A DNA stretch of 46,396 nucleotides from Myxococcales bacterium (GTDB lineage: Bacteria > Myxococcota_A > UBA9160 > UBA4427). A model generated the notes under the pieces. That model was not told the origin of the DNA. It worked only from the letters and a program-made list of their open reading frames with translations, and did no database searches. Positions 13,279 to 45,828 of this stretch are shown here, one piece after another. The position numbers and the translations under genes are program-made. Numbering within the stretch: the first letter of the stretch is position 1; every line of letters begins with the position of its first letter. The stretch lies in NCBI GenBank assembly GCA_022563535.1, contig JADFNE010000005.1, positions 1 through 46,396 on the forward strand, given 5' to 3'.

Positions 13279-13896
13279 CTATGCCCGAAGATCTCTCGAT
13301 GAGGCTTTGCTGAACTCCGTCCGCAGGTCGGCGTAGGTCGTCGCGACGGGGAACTGCGGGAATTCGTCGATCACGTTCTGCGGAGGGCAGAACAAGATCC
13401 CCGCGTCCGCTTCGCCGAGCATGTTGGTGTCGTTGTAGGAATCGCCGGTGGCGATGACCCGAAAGTTCAGGTCGTGAAACGCCTGTACGGCCTTTCGCTT
13501 CGGGTCGTCCTGGCGCATGTGGTAGTCCACGATCATGCCGCGGTCGTCGGTTTCGAGCTTGTGGCAGAAGAGCGTCGGCCAATCGAGTTGGCGCATGAAG
13601 GGTTCTGCGAATTCGTAAAACGTGTCCGAAAGGATTACGACCTGGAAGCGTTCGCGCAGCCAATCCAAACACTCTTTGGCGCCTTCGAGTGGGGTCAGGC
13701 CTGCGATCACTTCCTGAATGTCGGCCAGGCCGAGATTGTGCTGGGCGAGGATCTCCAGTCGTTGACGCATCAAGACATCGTAGTCGGGGATGTCACGGGT
13801 CGTTGCCCGCAGTTCGTCGATGCCGGTGCGCTCCGCAAAACTAATCCAAATTTCGGGGATCAATACCCCCTCTAGATCCAAACAAGCCAATTCCAC
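13279..13896 (-). CDS. thrH: ThrH: phosphoserine phosphatase / homoserine phosphotransferase, HAD family
   Basis: The 205-residue product matches the ThrH layout: [13 protein letters not shown] at the N terminus (HAD motif I), [16 protein letters not shown] in the cap, [11 protein letters not shown] (motif II), and [19 protein letters not shown] (motif III-IV). ThrH, described in Pseudomonas, dephosphorylates phosphoserine and can transfer the phosphate to homoserine. The GTG at 13896 has GGGAGA about 6 nt upstream and gives the typical length. The longer open frame upstream has no homology-like content. No serine or threonine pathway genes are nearby, so its metabolic role here is inferred only from the family. 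Confidence 0.9.
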
Positions 13897-14103
13897 GACT
13901 TTCTCCCAACTACGGTGTATGCGATCTCCGGTTGGGCCAAGTGATTGAAACGGCCGCCGGGGATGAATGCCGCGGGAGTCTCGCGCAGCAGTGGGGGCCG
14001 TGTCGAGGGCGCCCGTGATTCGGGCGGGTTTTGGGGCCATTCGGTAGGATCCGAGAATGTCCCAAAGTCCCGAATGCAACGCCAGGATCTTCGAGGGTGC
14101 GCT

Positions 14104-39388: not shown

Positions 39389-41490
39389 CAGCTTTCGCGG
39401 CCCCCATTGCTGAACGATACGAGAACCTGCCGCTGAGAGCCCATCACAATGGTGCCCGGAGTGGGGCGCTGATCGATCGCGAGACCGGTTCCCCTGATCT
39501 CGAGGTTGAGTTTGTTGTGGGCCGCCATTCGGCGAACCGACTCGAGGGTTTCGCCGCGGAAGTTGGGTATCAAGACGGGATCGTCGCTCTGTTGTGTCGC
39601 GAGTGCGCGCTTCGGAGGCGCCGATACCGCAGCTGGCCTTGCAGTCGGCGCTCGCGCGGGCTCGATCTTCGCTCGGCTCGCGGTGACGGTCTTGGACTTG
39701 GGCTTGGCCGCCTTTGGCTTGAACATAGTCTTGGACTTAGCCTTGGACTTGGCGAGCATTTCCGGAATCGTCTTCACTCGGCGCAGGGCCGGAATGGGTT
39801 CGGGGCGTGTGACGATTCCAAGTCGAGCGAGTTGGCCGGCGGCAACGCTTGCGAACAGTGGCGCCGCCACGTCGCCTCCACCGTGGGCGCGCCCCTTGGG
39901 TTCGTCGAGCATCACGACGATGACCAGCTTCGGATCGTCGGCCGGAACGGCACCCATGAACCAGGCGGTGTAACGGGTCTTCGAGTATCGGCCTCGCTTG
40001 GTGTCGAGCTTCTGGGCCGTGCCGGTCTTGCCCGCGACCCGCACGCCTCTGAGTGCAGCTTTGCGACCGGTTCCCTCTGCGCTCACCACGGATTCGAGCA
40101 TCTTCAGGGTCCGGGTCGCCACCGCTCGGCTGATTACCGGTTTCGGCTTATGGTTCGCCACACTCCGCCATTTCCCCCCCGCCTCCCGCCGCGCCGACAC
40201 CAGATGTGGGGTGCGCAGCATTCCATCTCCGGCGAGTACGCCCATGGCGGCGACCAGTTGAATCGCCGTCACTCCGAGTCCCTGTCCGTAGGCCGCGGTT
40301 GCTTGATCGACGGGTTTCCAGTCCTGCCAGGCTCGCAGCAGGCCACTGGATTCGCTGGGGAAGCCGCTTCCGGTTTTCTTCCCAAATCCGAAGCGCAGCA
40401 GCGCCCGATGATATTCCTCGCGCCCGAGCAGTACAGCAATTTGAACCGCACCGACGTTGCTCGAAAATTTGAGCACCCCGGTCGGATCGATCACGCCATA
40501 GGGCCGATGATCGCGGATCGTCATGCCCGGAATTTTCATACTCCCGTCACCCGTGTCGATGCGCTGTTCCGGGCCGATCGCACCGGCGTCCAGTGCGGCA
40601 GCGACCAAAAACGCCTTGAGCACTGAACCCGGCTCAACCGCATCCTGAAAGGCCGGCGAGCGCGTTTCGCTGTACTTGACCGTACGAAAGTCGTTCGGGC
40701 TGAAGCCTGGAGCTTCGGCCAGCGCCAGGATTTCTCCACTGAGTGGATCGTAGGTGATGACACAGCCGCCCTTTGCACCGCTCTTCTTGATCGCGTTGCG
40801 CAGGGCCGTTTCCGCCTCGGCCTGCATGGCCAGGTCGATCGTCAGGGCGACGTCGCCCCCGGAAGAGGAAAGGGGTGCAATGGATTCGCGCGTCATCAAT
40901 TGTCCCCGGGCGTCTCGTTCGACCGGGGTGCGGATCGGAGTGCCGCGCAGCCATTGGTCTTCTTGTTGTTCGATGCCGCGAACTCCCTCGCCATCGATGT
41001 TTGCGAATCCGAGGACGGACCCCGCGAGTTCGTCGGCCGGGTAGGCGCGTCGCGGTTCGAGCACGATGCCAACCCCGGGCAGGTTGAGCGCCTTGACCCG
41101 CTCGGCGACCTTCTCGCTGACCCAACGGCCGACAAAGGTGAAGCGTTCGCGTTCTTGCAAGCGGCGAGCGAGGCTGCTGGTCTTGCTGCCCATGGCCCTG
41201 GCCAGCGCGGCGAGATTCGCTCGATTTCCGTCGAAGTCGCGCGGTCGCACGTAAATGGACGGCGCGTGCAGGGTGAGGGCCAGTTCGATCCCGTTGCGAT
41301 CCACGATCTGGCCGCGCATCGCGGGCAGCACGATCACGCCTTCGAGCTGTCCCTTGGCGCGAATTTCACCGCGGCTGGTGACCACCGTGAGGTGGGCAGC
41401 GCGGGCGGCGAGTACGACGAAGAGCGCGAGAAAGACGACCCGGAGCAAGGCGACCCTGCGACCGGCGGCCCCCAATTCTGCCCCTCTCAT
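39388..41490 (-). CDS. ftsI: Division-specific transpeptidase FtsI (PBP3) with C-terminal PASTA domain
   Basis: FtsI crosslinks septal peptidoglycan with FtsW. The 700-residue class B PBP has a membrane anchor (residues 12-33), the dimerisation domain (RGQIVDRNGIELALTLHAPS) and the transpeptidase core: SVLK with Ser289 and Lys292, SSN at 343-345, and KTG at 488-490. From about 570 to 635 runs a linker rich in Lys, Ala and Pro, followed by a PASTA domain (637-695) starting with VLIPNFRGETLESVRRMA. PASTA domains are best known in Gram-positive PBPs but also occur here. It overlaps ftsL by 4 nt and murE by 1 nt. Confidence 0.96.
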   Translation of the reverse strand: MRGAELGAAGRRVALLRVVFLALFVVLAARAAHLTVVTSRGEIRAKGQLEGVIVLPAMRGQIVDRNGIELALTLHAPSIYVRPRDFDGNRANLAALARAMGSKTSSLARRLQERERFTFVGRWVSEKVAERVKALNLPGVGIVLEPRRAYPADELAGSVLGFANIDGEGVRGIEQQEDQWLRGTPIRTPVERDARGQLMTRESIAPLSSSGGDVALTIDLAMQAEAETALRNAIKKSGAKGGCVITYDPLSGEILALAEAPGFSPNDFRTVKYSETRSPAFQDAVEPGSVLKAFLVAAALDAGAIGPEQRIDTGDGSMKIPGMTIRDHRPYGVIDPTGVLKFSSNVGAVQIAVLLGREEYHRALLRFGFGKKTGSGFPSESSGLLRAWQDWKPVDQATAAYGQGLGVTAIQLVAAMGVLAGDGMLRTPHLVSARREAGGKWRSVANHKPKPVISRAVATRTLKMLESVVSAEGTGRKAALRGVRVAGKTGTAQKLDTKRGRYSKTRYTAWFMGAVPADDPKLVIVVMLDEPKGRAHGGGDVAAPLFASVAAGQLARLGIVTRPEPIPALRRVKTIPEMLAKSKAKSKTMFKPKAAKPKSKTVTASRAKIEPARAPTARPAAVSAPPKRALATQQSDDPVLIPNFRGETLESVRRMAAHNKLNLEIRGTGLAIDQRPTPGTIVMGSQRQVLVSFSNGGRES

Positions 41491-41909
41491 GGTCGAGGCT
41501 CAGCGCCCACCGGGGCTGCATCGAAGTCGAATCGCGTCGAAAGCGTGATCACGCGGTCGGGCTTTGCAAAACCCAGCGCCGCCGCTCGCTCGCTCAGCAA
41601 TTTGGGCTCGCGCAGGCGCAGGAGTTGGACAGTGATGTTGCGTTTTTCATCGAGCAATTCTTGCTCGAGGCTGACGGCCTGGGCGCTGGCGTAGCTCATG
41701 CGCACGACGTCCATCCTCAAGCCCACCAGAAATAGTGCCGCGATCACAACCGCGGCAATCGCGGGTACGAGAGTTTGATTTCGCCGGGTCTCGCTCCATC
41801 GGGCCATGTCGACTCCGATCAAGTCGAGACGGTTCGAGTGCCCGGTATCGCTCCGGTTGAGCCCGGCCACGGCGCGCATCCAGGCGCTGATGGGATCGGC
41901 GATGTTCAT
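41487..41909 (-). CDS. ftsL: Cell division protein FtsL
   Basis: FtsL is a small bitopic protein that activates FtsWI with FtsQ and FtsB. The 140-residue product has a cytoplasmic N terminus of about 47 residues, a membrane span (LVPAIAAVVIAALFLVGLRM, about 47-66) and a periplasmic coiled coil (AQAVSLEQELLDEKRNITVQ followed by LLRLREPKLLSERAAALGF). The ending RVITLSTRFDFDAAP fits. Sequence conservation is low in this family, so gene order is decisive: it lies between rsmH and ftsI with 4-nt overlaps at both ends. The N-terminal extension is longer than in E. coli FtsL. Confidence 0.85.
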   Translation of the reverse strand: MNIADPISAWMRAVAGLNRSDTGHSNRLDLIGVDMARWSETRRNQTLVPAIAAVVIAALFLVGLRMDVVRMSYASAQAVSLEQELLDEKRNITVQLLRLREPKLLSERAAALGFAKPDRVITLSTRFDFDAAPVGAEPRP

Positions 41910-42853
41910 GCCGCTTCCCCAATGCGCTCTGCCGCGCGCAATTTACCCGAGCGCGCGCGAGGGTTGATCTGGATCTCAGAGGCTTTGGGTTGAATGGGTC
42001 GCCTGGTGATGACGCGCAACGTGATCCTCCCGCCACAAATGCAAATCGGCGTGGCAGGTGGACAGGTGCATCCCTTTGCCGCCACGCGCATAGAGTGCTT
42101 CACAATGCGATCTTCGAGAGAGTGGTACGCGATCACCACCAGGCGACCCCCAGGTCGGAGGACCCGTATTGCTGCATCCAGGCCGTCGCGCAATGCACCC
42201 AGCTCATCGTTGACCGCGATGCGTAGGGCCTGAAAAACTAAAGTGGCCGGGTTGTGCGAGCGCCCCCGACCGATTCGAGCTTGCTGGATCACCCGCAGAA
42301 GATCGGCGCTGGTCTTGATCGGCGCGTCCTTGCGGGTTTCGACGATGGCCTGGGCCAGGCGCTTGGAGCCGGGAAGCTCGCCGTAGTTCTGAAACCAGTT
42401 TTGCAGCTGCTCGGCGCTGGCGGTTCTCAGCAGCTGCTCGGCGGTATTGCCCGACTCCGGGTCCATGCGCATGTCCAGCGGAGATGCGTCGTGTGAAAAG
42501 CGAAAGCCGCGGGTCGTGGAGTCGAGCTGATGGGAAGAGACGCCGAGATCGAACAACACGCCGTCGACATGGTCGATTTCGAGTTCCTCGAGGACAATTT
42601 CGAGCTTGCGAAACGAGGCCGGCACTGTCCGCAGCCGTTCGCCAAAGCGAGCGAGCCGAGCCCGGGCCGCGTTGCGCGCTTCGGGGTCGAGGTCCAGGCC
42701 GATCAGGATTCCGTCGGGTGAGGTCCGTTCGAGGATCGCACCGGCGTGCCCCCCGCCACCGAGGGTTCCGTCCACGATCGTTGCACCCGGGGTGAGATTG
42801 AGTTGGTGGAGGCTTTCGTCGAGGAGAACGGGGCGGTGTTCGAAGTCAGTCAT
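41906..42853 (-). CDS. rsmH: 16S rRNA (cytosine-1402-N4)-methyltransferase
   Basis: RsmH (MraW) methylates C1402 of 16S rRNA using S-adenosylmethionine. The 315-residue protein has FEHRPVLLDESLHQLNLTPG, the SAM motif IVDGTLGGGGHAGAILE, VLFDLGVSSHQLDSTTRGFR, LVFQALRIAVNDELGALRDG, LRPGGRLVVIAYHSLEDRIV and the C-terminal Cys-rich GCTCPPATPICICGG zinc-like segment. The start ATG at 42853 is the best match to the family; upstream codons to 42979 are not supported. A 198-nt spacer with two hairpins separates it from mraZ. Its stop overlaps ftsL by 4 nt. Confidence 0.95.
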   Translation of the reverse strand: MTDFEHRPVLLDESLHQLNLTPGATIVDGTLGGGGHAGAILERTSPDGILIGLDLDPEARNAARARLARFGERLRTVPASFRKLEIVLEELEIDHVDGVLFDLGVSSHQLDSTTRGFRFSHDASPLDMRMDPESGNTAEQLLRTASAEQLQNWFQNYGELPGSKRLAQAIVETRKDAPIKTSADLLRVIQQARIGRGRSHNPATLVFQALRIAVNDELGALRDGLDAAIRVLRPGGRLVVIAYHSLEDRIVKHSMRVAAKGCTCPPATPICICGGRITLRVITRRPIQPKASEIQINPRARSGKLRAAERIGEAA

Positions 42854-42982
42854 TACGAGAGCCGCTTGCCTCCCGCCTGCACCGGGATTGGGGAAAACCT
42901 GTTTCCGGGTGGAGAGGTGCTGGGGGCCCTGGGTCACCCGTGAAATGGCGCGTACCCCCCAGTAACCACGCCAAATCACGAT

Positions 42983-43051: not shown

Positions 43052-43495
43052 CTAGCTCGGAGGACTTCCGTCCACCGAGAGCTGAATCTCCTCGAGCCGG
43101 CTCATTGTTTCGAGCTTTGTTGTTTCAAAGAGTTGTGTGTCCCAGATCTCGATGCAGTCGAGTACGCCTGCGATCGTGACCTTGCTCTTGAGCATGGCGT
43201 GCGACCGCATTGAGGGCGGCACGAGAATACGTCCCTGGCTGTCGATGGGGCATTCGGTCGACCCGGAAATCACGAAGCGTGTGTACGCTATGACGTCGGG
43301 TTGGAGTCTCGACTTTGCCTGCAGGTTTTGCTCAATCACTAGCCAGTCCTCGTAGGGATAGAGCGCCAGGTAGTTCTTGTAGTTCGTCAAAATCGGAGGT
43401 TTCTCGCTGCGTCGCAGGATTTCGTTTCGAAAGCCGGTCGGGATTTTGAGCCGTCCCTTTGCGTCTATAGTGTGATCGTGCCGGCCACGAAACAT
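43052..43495 (-). CDS. mraZ: Transcriptional regulator MraZ
   Basis: MraZ is a ring-forming DNA-binding protein of the AbrB/SpoVT fold that represses its own dcw operon. The 147-residue product contains the two related half-domains: MFRGRHDHTIDAKGRLKIPT near the start, and STECPIDSQGRILVPPSMR near residues 79-97. The DxxGR motifs (DAKGR, DSQGR) make DNA contacts. It is the first dcw gene, and an array of six MraZ-box-like repeats lies 47 to 104 nt upstream. Read-through into rsmH crosses a 198-nt hairpin-bearing spacer. Confidence 0.95.
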   Translation of the reverse strand: MFRGRHDHTIDAKGRLKIPTGFRNEILRRSEKPPILTNYKNYLALYPYEDWLVIEQNLQAKSRLQPDVIAYTRFVISGSTECPIDSQGRILVPPSMRSHAMLKSKVTIAGVLDCIEIWDTQLFETTKLETMSRLEEIQLSVDGSPPS

Positions 43496-43541: not shown

Positions 43542-43599
43542 CCACCTTAAGCCACTTGAAACCACTTTGTAACCCTTTGAATCTACTTTGATCCACTTT
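43542..43599 (-). promoter_or_regulatory. Array of six MraZ-box-like repeats upstream of mraZ
   Basis: On the plus strand, heptads at 43542 (CCACCTT), 43552 (CCACTTG), 43562 (CCACTTT), 43572 (ACCCTTT), 43583 (CTACTTT) and 43593 (CCACTTT) are spaced 10, 10, 10, 11 and 10 nt. Read on the minus strand they are AAAGTGG-like. MraZ operators known elsewhere are short direct repeats (GTGGG or AAAGTG type) spaced by one helical turn. Position directly before mraZ supports autoregulation. TTGACG (43621 to 43616, minus) lies just upstream and could be a -35 element, but no good -10 is visible. Confidence 0.75.
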
Positions 43600-43688
43600 C
43601 TTAAAAAAACTTCTGCGTCAAACGATGTCTCGCCACGATACACAACATTTAGACTACTGAATTCGGTCATTTTCCGAAGGGTGCTCCG

Positions 43689-44780
43689 CTACGAGTGAAC
43701 ACTGCGGCTCGGGCTGATGCTCGAGTAGGTCTCGGAATGTGCCTGCGAAACCAGGGAGGCGATCTGGTTCAAGTTGCTTCCTTCCCTGGGCGCCGCTGCG
43801 GGGGGCGGCGTCGCGCGTTCGAGATCGGCTGCGAGCATCCCTTCCAGCACCGCTGTGGTTCCTTCAAAGAGACCCGACGCGGAGTACCCACCCTCGAGGA
43901 TGTACACGATTCTGCCTCCACAGACGGTTTCCGCCACTTCTCTGACGATCTGGGTCATGCCCAGAAAGCCCGCTGCACTGAGCTGCATCGATCCGAGGGG
44001 GTCTGCTTGATGGGCGTCGAAGCCGCAGGAAATCAGGATGAAGTCCGGATCGAACTCGATCGCGATCGGCGCGAACAAACGCGTGAGGACGCCGATGTAT
44101 TCGTAGTCTCCACAGCCCGGTGGCATGGGGATGTTCACGGTCGCACCGCGTCCCCGGTCGATCCCCACCTCTCCGGCAGCACCAGTGCCCGGGTAGAAGG
44201 GAAACTGATGGGTAGACATGTAGAGGACCGAGGGATCGTCTTCGAAGCTGTGCTGGCTGCCGTTGCCGTGGTGGACATCCCAGTCGAGGATTAAAACCTT
44301 TTCAATTCCAGCGACTTGCTGAAGTGCGCGCGCCGTGATCGCGACGCTGTTGAAGAGGCAGAAGCCCATCGCGCGATCGGATTCCGCGTGGTGGCCGGGG
44401 GGGCGCAAGGCCGCAAAACCAGAATCCAGTTCAGCTCGAGCCACATGCATGGCCAAATCCACACAGCTCCCGGCCGCAAGCAGGGCGACGTTCAAGCTCT
44501 CGGCTGACACGAAAGTATCGGCGTCCAGGTGCGTCGGAGCCCGAGCGACCGCCGCCTCGACCCGGTGCAGATGGTCGAGGGTGTGGACGCTGAGGATTTC
44601 CTCGTCGCTCGCGAGGCGGGGCTCGATGCGCTCGATCGAGCCCGGCGAGCGCTTCTCCCAAGCGCTCAAGGCCTGTCCCACCGCGACCATTCGGGCGGCG
44701 GCTTCCGGATGGCCATCCGGGGCCGTATGGGTCTGAAATCGAGGGTCTTCGATCACGCCGATTCGTCGCGTGACGTCCAT
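43689..44780 (-). CDS. Histone deacetylase family (AcuC/acetylpolyamine amidohydrolase-like) hydrolase
   Basis: The 363-residue zinc hydrolase has the arginase-deacetylase fold motifs: RPPGHHAESDRAMGFCLFNS (double His of the charge relay), LDWDVHHGNGSQHSF (Asp and His zinc ligands), MSTHQFPFYPGTG, and ILISCGFDAHQADPLGSMQL (Asp ligand), ending with YILEGGYSASGL. It removes acetyl or other acyl groups from lysine or polyamines. The bacterial substrate is unknown. ATG 44780 fits the domain start; upstream frame to 44900 is unsupported. A C-terminal tail of about 45 polar residues follows the domain. It ends 90 nt before the MraZ boxes and is divergent from the epimerase gene. Confidence 0.9.
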   Translation of the reverse strand: MDVTRRIGVIEDPRFQTHTAPDGHPEAAARMVAVGQALSAWEKRSPGSIERIEPRLASDEEILSVHTLDHLHRVEAAVARAPTHLDADTFVSAESLNVALLAAGSCVDLAMHVARAELDSGFAALRPPGHHAESDRAMGFCLFNSVAITARALQQVAGIEKVLILDWDVHHGNGSQHSFEDDPSVLYMSTHQFPFYPGTGAAGEVGIDRGRGATVNIPMPPGCGDYEYIGVLTRLFAPIAIEFDPDFILISCGFDAHQADPLGSMQLSAAGFLGMTQIVREVAETVCGGRIVYILEGGYSASGLFEGTTAVLEGMLAADLERATPPPAAAPREGSNLNQIASLVSQAHSETYSSISPSRSVHS

Positions 44781-44859
44781 GGCAAGGGATGGTATCTGAC
44801 AGAAGGAGAGCGTCGAGGGACTAGTCTCGAATGCTCCTGGGGACGGGAGAGACAGGCCC

Positions 44860-45828
44860 GTGGAACCACCGCGCAGCATTGCCTTTACAGGGATCGACAC
44901 CTACTTCGGCCGACGGCTGATCGACCGGCTGGCGGCGCGTCCAGGTCCGCTGCGGATTGTCGGCCTGGACTCCCACGATCCGCCGAATCCCGCGCCGCTG
45001 ATCCATTTTCATCGAGTGGATTTGACCCAGCCGGGGATCGGCGCGCACATCGCGGAAATTCTCTGCAAGGAACAGGTCGATGTGGTCGTCCATCTGGCGT
45101 TCAAGGAAGTGCCGAGCGCAAATCGCGATGCCGATCACGAGATCGAGGTTTCGGGCAGCCTGGAAATTTTGAACGCCTGTGCCGAGGCCAACGTCGGCAA
45201 GCTCGTCATTCCCTCTACCACCATGTGCTACGGCCCGCGTCTCGAGAACGCCCATCAACTCTGCGAAGACGCACCGCTCCGCGGTCACGCCGGCGCGCAC
45301 TGGATTTCGAATCGAGTGCAGGTCGAGCGCGCTGTCGAACGCTACCGCAAATCGACGCCCGCTTGCAGCGTCACCGTATTGCGTCACTGTTGGATCATGG
45401 GGCCGCAATTCGTCGATCCCATCGTGCGTTTCTTCGAGGCGCAGTGGGTCCCCACGCTCCTGGGTTACGACCCGCTGCTGCAGTTCGTGCACGAAGATGA
45501 TTTGCTGGCGGTGCTCGAGGCGGCGATTTTCGAGTCTCATCCGGGAGTCTTCAACGTAGTGGGCGAGGGCGTACTGCCGCTTTCGGGGTATCTCCGCCTG
45601 GCGGGCAAACGCAATGTCTCACTTCCCAGGATATTGCTCTCCCGTATCCCGGGAGCGCCGATTGCCCTCAGCAGCGCTGATTCTGAGGACGGATTTTACG
45701 ACTACCTGAAATACATATGGGTCGCGTCTGGAGAACGCCTTCGGACAGAATTCGGCCCGCTCGCCTACACGAGCCAGGAAGCCTGGTCTGCGATGGTGAG
45801 TTCCCGGAGACTGCAGCACTATCGATAG
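44860..45828 (+). CDS. Atypical NAD-dependent epimerase/dehydratase (extended SDR)
   Basis: The 322-residue protein has a Rossmann N terminus (IAFTGIDTYFGRRLIDRLAA, a TGxxxxxG-type motif), VDVVVHLAFKEVP, IPSTTMCYGP and a C-terminal substrate domain. The catalytic YxxxK of extended SDRs is not visible; the equivalent stretch AHWISNRVQVERAV has Trp and Arg instead. It probably binds NAD(H) without standard epimerase chemistry. GTG 44860 lies 79 nt from the deacetylase start. It is followed 32 nt later by the acyltransferase gene, so the two may form a unit. Confidence 0.75.
   Translation: MEPPRSIAFTGIDTYFGRRLIDRLAARPGPLRIVGLDSHDPPNPAPLIHFHRVDLTQPGIGAHIAEILCKEQVDVVVHLAFKEVPSANRDADHEIEVSGSLEILNACAEANVGKLVIPSTTMCYGPRLENAHQLCEDAPLRGHAGAHWISNRVQVERAVERYRKSTPACSVTVLRHCWIMGPQFVDPIVRFFEAQWVPTLLGYDPLLQFVHEDDLLAVLEAAIFESHPGVFNVVGEGVLPLSGYLRLAGKRNVSLPRILLSRIPGAPIALSSADSEDGFYDYLKYIWVASGERLRTEFGPLAYTSQEAWSAMVSSRRLQHYR

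Follow-up and report, generated by a model that had tools for sequence, protein, structure and literature searches.

The stretch of DNA analysed here, 46,396 nucleotides in length and referred to as the window, carries an mraZ gene on its minus strand (43052..43495). Its predicted product of 147 amino acids matches TIGR00242 with 107.5 bits, where the cut-off is 98.35. MraZ is a very widespread bacterial regulator. The gene stands at the head of the dcw operon and is followed by rsmH (mraW; 41906..42979, minus strand) as the second gene, which matches TIGR00006 with 313.8 bits. This match begins at residue 43 and the true start of rsmH probably lies further in than the listed start of its open reading frame. 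An ftsL-like gene comes next (41487..41909, minus strand), which scores 31.9 bits against NF053549, below the cut-off of 55, and is named from its place in the operon. Upstream of mraZ, a gene that runs in the same direction (43689-44900, minus strand) has the look of a histone-deacetylase-type amidohydrolase and found no NCBIfam match at E 0.001. There is no terminator-like site to be found between 43490 and 43700.

The three nearest relatives of the MraZ protein come from Myxococcales/Myxococcota MAGs and share 87, 78 and 69% identity with it. A model predicted from ten sequences has a mean pLDDT of 87.8, and it matches the MraZ structures of M. pneumoniae and M. genitalium with Z values of 17.9-19.7 and the cryo-EM entries that include promoter DNA with Z values of 17.9-18.3. 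Structure matches below the MraZ entries (Z under 5) were left uninterpreted. Both DxxxR motifs, which are presumably tied to MraZ function, are invariant in all ten of the aligned sequences. Residue 17 of the window protein, two residues past the first of these motifs, is a lysine. Among 72 MraZ proteins of the class that have a readable motif, 63 carry a serine at this place and only the window carries a lysine, which might alter the reading of the boxes described below.

Boxes and phase in the mraZ leader

In the mraZ leader, six heptads on the minus strand form an array of 58 bp (43542-43599) with steps of 10, 11, 10, 10 and 10 bp, and 46 bp separate its end from the mraZ start codon (43495). 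The sequence-only reading had described six such repeats with a 10-11 bp period directly before mraZ, and this description holds. To score them, a matrix was built from 270 GTGG sites outside the window, each paired with another at a distance of 10 or 21 bp, together with 36 in-between lattice places without GTGG; E. coli contributed to it and the window did not. The consensus of the 270 sites is AAAGTGGGAT. Judged by its sequence, this is the known MraZ box, and the core repeat of Mollicutes has the same period.

The six places are not equal. The upstream pair consists of box 1 (AAAGTGG, 43593..43599), which scores 7.7 bits, and box 2 (AAAGTAG, 43583..43589), which is weak at 3.3 bits. The downstream triple consists of box 4 (AAAGTGG, 43562..43568), box 5 (CAAGTGG, 43552..43558) and box 6 (AAGGTGG, 43542..43548), with 9.8, 9.2 and 10.1 bits. 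Between pair and triple, lattice position 3 (AAAGGGT, 43572..43578) scores -0.3 bits, which is below box level even though the lattice places without GTGG make the matrix favour odd boxes such as this one. A model of six equal boxes was therefore rejected. The repeats at 43572 and 43583 had earlier been called weaker than the others; both are indeed low, but only the second is a weak box, whereas the first is not a box. At a threshold of 2.5 bits or more, the layout is thus five boxes arranged as two, a vacancy and three, with steps of 10-21-10-10, and at 5 bits or more the best chain is the contiguous triple of boxes 4-6. The earlier reading did not contain this layout, nor the fact that the vacancy falls where relatives have a -10-like sequence.

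Single heptads are near the chance level in the window, and the phased array is well above it. Heptads of the AAAGTGG type with at most one mismatch occur 98 times in the whole window, where 83 are expected and 6 of 100 shuffles hold as many. The scores of the five boxes sum to 40.0 bits. With a floor of 0.5 bits, the best chain of the leader has six elements and 41.4 bits, wherein the sixth element adds about 1.4 bits and is not position 3. None of 5,000 dinucleotide shuffles of the leader reaches this total (the best has 29.2 bits), and 18 of the 5,000 hold five or six elements of any strength above the same floor. The matrix scores, the shuffles and the known consensus uphold the claim that MraZ-type boxes stand at the dcw operon. 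A second chain in the window (13852-13912, minus strand) lies inside an open reading frame and has 23.4 bits, fewer than the best shuffled leader, and was taken as chance.

In the window's own genome (an assembly that is 97.88% complete), a strict three-box pattern has two matches, namely the mraZ leader and an exact decamer repeat of GGGTGGCGCT, and its reversed control has one. Beyond the GGGTGGCGCT repeat, this strict pattern reveals no second MraZ target in the assembly. The repeat itself (L107; G000:C48:12437-12462) is short, and its three-box match is probably due to chance.

Boxes around the predicted -10 in related leaders

One mraZ leader per genome was collected from relatives and from E. 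coli. The class of the window is represented by 73 leaders from 75 sampled genomes, the window included; two genomes (G018 and G069) have no MraZ match, the mraZ gene of G031 is truncated, and one of the two mraZ genes of G074 was used. These two genes lie on different contigs (L064 and G074:C96:89819-90220). Other classes of the phylum supply 44 leaders from 46 genomes, and Planctomycetota supply 38 leaders from 43 genomes with a match among 49 sampled. In total, 174 loci were reduced to 156 leaders by dropping duplicates and by setting aside L106 and L107, which are not independent mraZ leaders. RGTGG pairs at a spacing of 10 bp were counted in 91 distinct leaders, the window and E. coli among them: the coding strand has 122 and the opposite strand 7, and there are further peaks at 20/21, 30/31, 40/41 and 51 bp. 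Three or more boxes on the reverse strand occur in 3 of the 73 class leaders. The comparison of mraZ leaders proposed earlier as a check thus finds both the boxes and their phase kept across the class.

Five or more boxes of at least 2.5 bits are present in 20 of the 73 class leaders, counting the window (15 have five and 5 have six), in 8 of the 44 leaders from other classes of the phylum, and in 3 of the 38 from Planctomycetota. Five boxes are more than the three or four of studied operators, and yet this number is ordinary within the class. The notion that an array of six boxes is exceptional is not sustained by these counts, or by the five boxes that score here. The layout of 10-21-10-10 recurs in L028, from another family, and in L043, from another genus, and both have the same distance to the start codon as the window (-104 to -53).

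Promoter-like sequence often lies across the 20-22 bp steps of related leaders, such as TTGACC - 17 - TATACG in L026 and TTGAAG - 17 - TATAAG in L028. Among steps of exactly 21 bp, of which there are 32 (L001-L070), the columns counted from the upstream box read T (0.78) at +9, A (0.69) at +10, mixed at +11, A (0.91) at +12 and A (0.75) at +13. The pattern TAnRAn is found in 21 of 44 gaps, against an average of 6.6 and a maximum of 15 over 2,000 shufflings of the gaps. A 20-22 bp gap with TAnAn is present in 31 of the 73 class leaders, representing 19 of 43 genera and 7 of 12 families. The window is one of the 42 leaders that fail this test. Most of the gap matches (23 of 31) are at offset +9, and in three of these 31 leaders the -35 agrees at no more than two of its six positions. 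Elsewhere, such gaps are found in 1 of the 44 leaders from other classes of the phylum and in none of the 38 from Planctomycetota.

A second test was anchored on the predicted -10 of the 46 class leaders whose predicted promoter reaches at least 10 bits. GTGG cores were located to within 1 bp, and the anchors were permuted among leaders. A core stands at -6 in 20 of the 46 leaders (permuted maximum 10), at +15 in 39 (permuted maximum 13), at +25 in 33 and at +35 in 27 (permuted maximum 12 for each). There is no enrichment at the vacancy (+5), where 7 of the 46 leaders have a core (permuted mean 4.0, maximum 11), or at the second upstream place (-16), with 3 of the 46 (permuted mean 3.1). By chain pattern, a pair of boxes precedes the gap in at least 15 of the 73 class leaders, including the window, and 12 of these 15 are outside the anchored test because their best promoter scores under 10 bits. 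Among 34 leaders from other classes of the phylum, the +15 place is enriched (13, permuted maximum 7), the -6 place is not (2), and the -16 place holds a core in 5 (permuted maximum 6).

The sigma70 weights used for these predictions are approximate, and the last position of the -10 was relaxed after TATAAG had been seen, which leans the scan to TATAAG-like hexamers; control groups were scored in the same way. Of the 64 class leaders whose best promoter reaches at least 6 bits, 31 have the -10 within a 20-22 bp gap, a count that includes TAGATT of the window, and in the others it lies upstream of all boxes (9), in a contiguous part of the array (10) or elsewhere (14). In other classes of the phylum, the best -10 is upstream of the boxes in 12 of 19 scored leaders, as it is in E. 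coli. On the footing of these predicted promoters and start sites, the boxes appear often to flank the -10 in the class.

Boxes 1 and 2 of the window are upstream of the place where class relatives have their -10, and position 3 coincides with the place of the -10-like hexamer itself. The window's own -10 is poor. Here, at +9 from box 2, relatives carry TATAAG or TAGAAA and the window carries TCAAAG (43575..43580, minus strand), which is without the A of a -10-like hexamer. The best-scoring hexamer in the sigma70-type scan is TAGATT (43580..43585, minus strand; 9.0 bits), which overlaps box 2 at +4 and whose tentative -35-like partner, TTTTTT (43603..43608, minus strand), is a poor match located 17 bp before it. 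Tentatively, both TAGATT and TCAAAG are retained as candidates for the -10. A stricter, standard promoter scanner predicts no promoter in the window leader. A TTGACG upstream of the array was considered as a -35 and set aside, since no good -10 follows it at a distance of 16-18 bp (5.0 bits).

Three congeners of the window (G001, G003 and G002, in this order below) show which positions are kept within the genus. Position 4 scores 11.1, 12.5 and 12.9 bits and position 5 scores 11.0, 11.0 and 11.1 bits, such that both are strong in all four species when the window is counted. Position 6, with 4.8, -3.3 and 6.3 bits, reaches at least 4.8 bits in three of the four. Upstream, position 1 has 6.5, 3.4 and -8.0 bits and position 2 has 9.8, 4.9 and 1.1 bits, and these reach at least 3.4 and 3.3 bits, respectively, each in three of four species. 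Position 3 scores -0.6, 0.0 and 2.9 bits, the last of which is barely over the threshold of 2.5. Across the vacancy the window has a step of 21 bp, versus 20 bp for the three congeners under the anchoring used, and no congener shows a clear -10 there. A GGG core (GGGT or GGGG) replaces GTGG at position 3 in each of the four species (the window and leaders L032, L027 and L024 of G001, G002 and G003), and this may be a variant box that has been conserved or else belong to a promoter element that went unrecognised.

Possible roles of the array

The array is very probably a real MraZ operator, with binding predicted from the box sequences, of a variant architecture that is common in the class and in which boxes lie on both sides of the -10 place. 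Our preferred reading, which we regard as likely, is that it serves as the autoregulatory MraZ operator of the dcw operon, is split across the promoter as in the class, and has the ring bridging the -10. Each helical turn of the coding strand carries one MraZ box (AAAGTGGGAT), which places the boxes on one face of the DNA and would let consecutive subunits of a single MraZ ring read one box each. In the class, the promoter would often split this row: one or two boxes occupy the -35/-10 spacer, the -10 hexamer fits into a following two-turn step of about 21 bp, and another two or three boxes begin close to the transcription start. A ring bound in this way would span the -10 and shut out RNA polymerase from either side. 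We infer MraZ binding, the use of one ring per array, repression and the place of transcription start from these sequence patterns. Likewise, a ring that reads successive boxes could plausibly span the two-turn step.

A more specific version of this mechanism is possible, but we give it somewhat less than even odds. The operator would have grown upstream across the -10 in one class of the Myxococcota, and a single ring would clamp the promoter so that the -10 is held on the ring surface, with the vacancy faced by a subunit that reads no bases. If this is true, box number and ring size would co-evolve.

The main competitor to an operator that straddles the promoter is one in which only the downstream triple (boxes 4-6) functions, as in E. 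coli, and the upstream part is decaying or incidental. This fits the best chain at 5 bits or more, which is the triple alone, and it fits the congeners in which positions 1 and 2 are lost (-8.0 and 1.1 bits in G002) or weak (3.4 and 4.9 bits in G003). It also agrees with the upstream -10 of E. coli and of 12 of the 19 scored leaders from other classes of the phylum. However, box 1 has 7.7 bits in the window, G001 has 6.5 and 9.8 bits at positions 1 and 2, and across the class a box stands at -6, upstream of the predicted -10, more often than in any permutation (20 of 46 against at most 10), which leaves this explanation unlikely. We judge it still less probable that MraZ occupies all six positions, using two rings or a wider arc of a single one, to give a tighter or graded switch. 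There are indeed six in-phase places over the 58 bp, six or more scored places occur in 5 of 73 leaders in the class and in 5 of 44 in other classes of the phylum, and the GGG core at position 3 is kept in four of four species of the genus, with 2.9 bits in G002. Nevertheless, position 3 has only -0.3 bits in the window and -0.6 and 0.0 bits in two congeners, and the number of rings is not readable from sequence.

Two further explanations do without MraZ boxes. A G-quadruplex formed by G-rich repeats has been proposed for the mraZ leader of S. aureus, where a G4 motif is reported downstream of the mraZ promoter (PMC11796246). By comparison, the array of the window has two runs of three or more Gs and no four-run motif, the top 25-nt G4Hunter window of its leader reaches only 1.08, a four-run motif is present in 18 of the 73 class leaders, and both the 10/21 period and the AAAGTGG consensus would be left unexplained. 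A G-quadruplex was rejected for the window leader on the missing four-run motif and the G4Hunter maximum, and we consider this role very improbable. That the array is a chance run of heptads is harder still to credit. Single heptads are near chance (98 versus 83 expected) and, by element number alone, 18 of 5,000 shuffles reach five or six elements, but no shuffle reaches the total score, the strict three-box pattern is found at two places in the genome against one for its reversed control, and the recurrence of boxes and phase across the class contradicts it.

Studied MraZ operators

Reportedly, the MraZ operator of Mollicutes was the subject of Fisunov 2016 and the mraZ operator of E. coli that of Eraso 2014. 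When scored with the same matrix, the E. coli mraZ leader has three boxes at 5 bits or more and four at 2.5 bits or more. It shares the box consensus and the 10-bp step with the window, but all of its boxes are downstream of the -10 in the sigma70-type scan used here.

Two reports give the Mollicutes operator as (AAAGTGKN3)3 (PMC5282649, PMC8475190). The AAAGTGG heptad, the 10-bp period, the location in the mraZ leader and the direct orientation of the repeats are common to this operator and the window, whereas the Mollicutes core is three contiguous repeats and the window spreads five scored boxes, with one 21-bp step among them, over 58 bp. In Burkholderia cenocepacia, four 7-nt repeats with 3-nt spacers in the dcw promoter are bound by MraZ, and they are located downstream of the -10 and over the start site, as in E. 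coli (PMC7761207). There the boxes follow the -10, whereas the class of the window often has boxes before the predicted -10 as well. The M. genitalium MraZ-promoter complexes determined by cryo-EM (9r4j and 9sz7) contain proteins with the fold of the window MraZ and DNA from that organism's own promoter. One of the two titles reads '4 box promoter', and none of the entry titles listed mentions a split array. With three repeats in Mollicutes, four in B. cenocepacia, four in this title and three or four in E. coli, the earlier estimate that known operators have about three to four repeats is in agreement with these sources. Among the literature titles listed, which leave most subscription journals outside reach, none concerns an MraZ operator that straddles the -10 or MraZ boxes of Myxococcota.

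MraZ heads a cell-division operon, and its studied operators considered here have three or four boxes that follow the -10 where its position is stated. A class with an often straddled predicted -10 and two-turn phasing offers natural variants for asking how many subunits of the ring read DNA. The same variants bear on the mode of repression, which might be occlusion of the start site or a clamp on the promoter.

Another regulator of Mollicutes, HsdC, has a site of GTG-core direct repeats that overlap the -10 and the start site (PMC5282649). MraZ also binds this site, as a single octamer, despite a 1-nt difference from the spacer of its own site (PMC5282649). The HsdC site belongs to a different regulator and a different operon than the array of the window, and the GTG-core repeats are common to both. 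In S. aureus, the G-quadruplex reported in PMC11796246 is located at the place expected for MraZ boxes, and its G tracts may be MraZ boxes.
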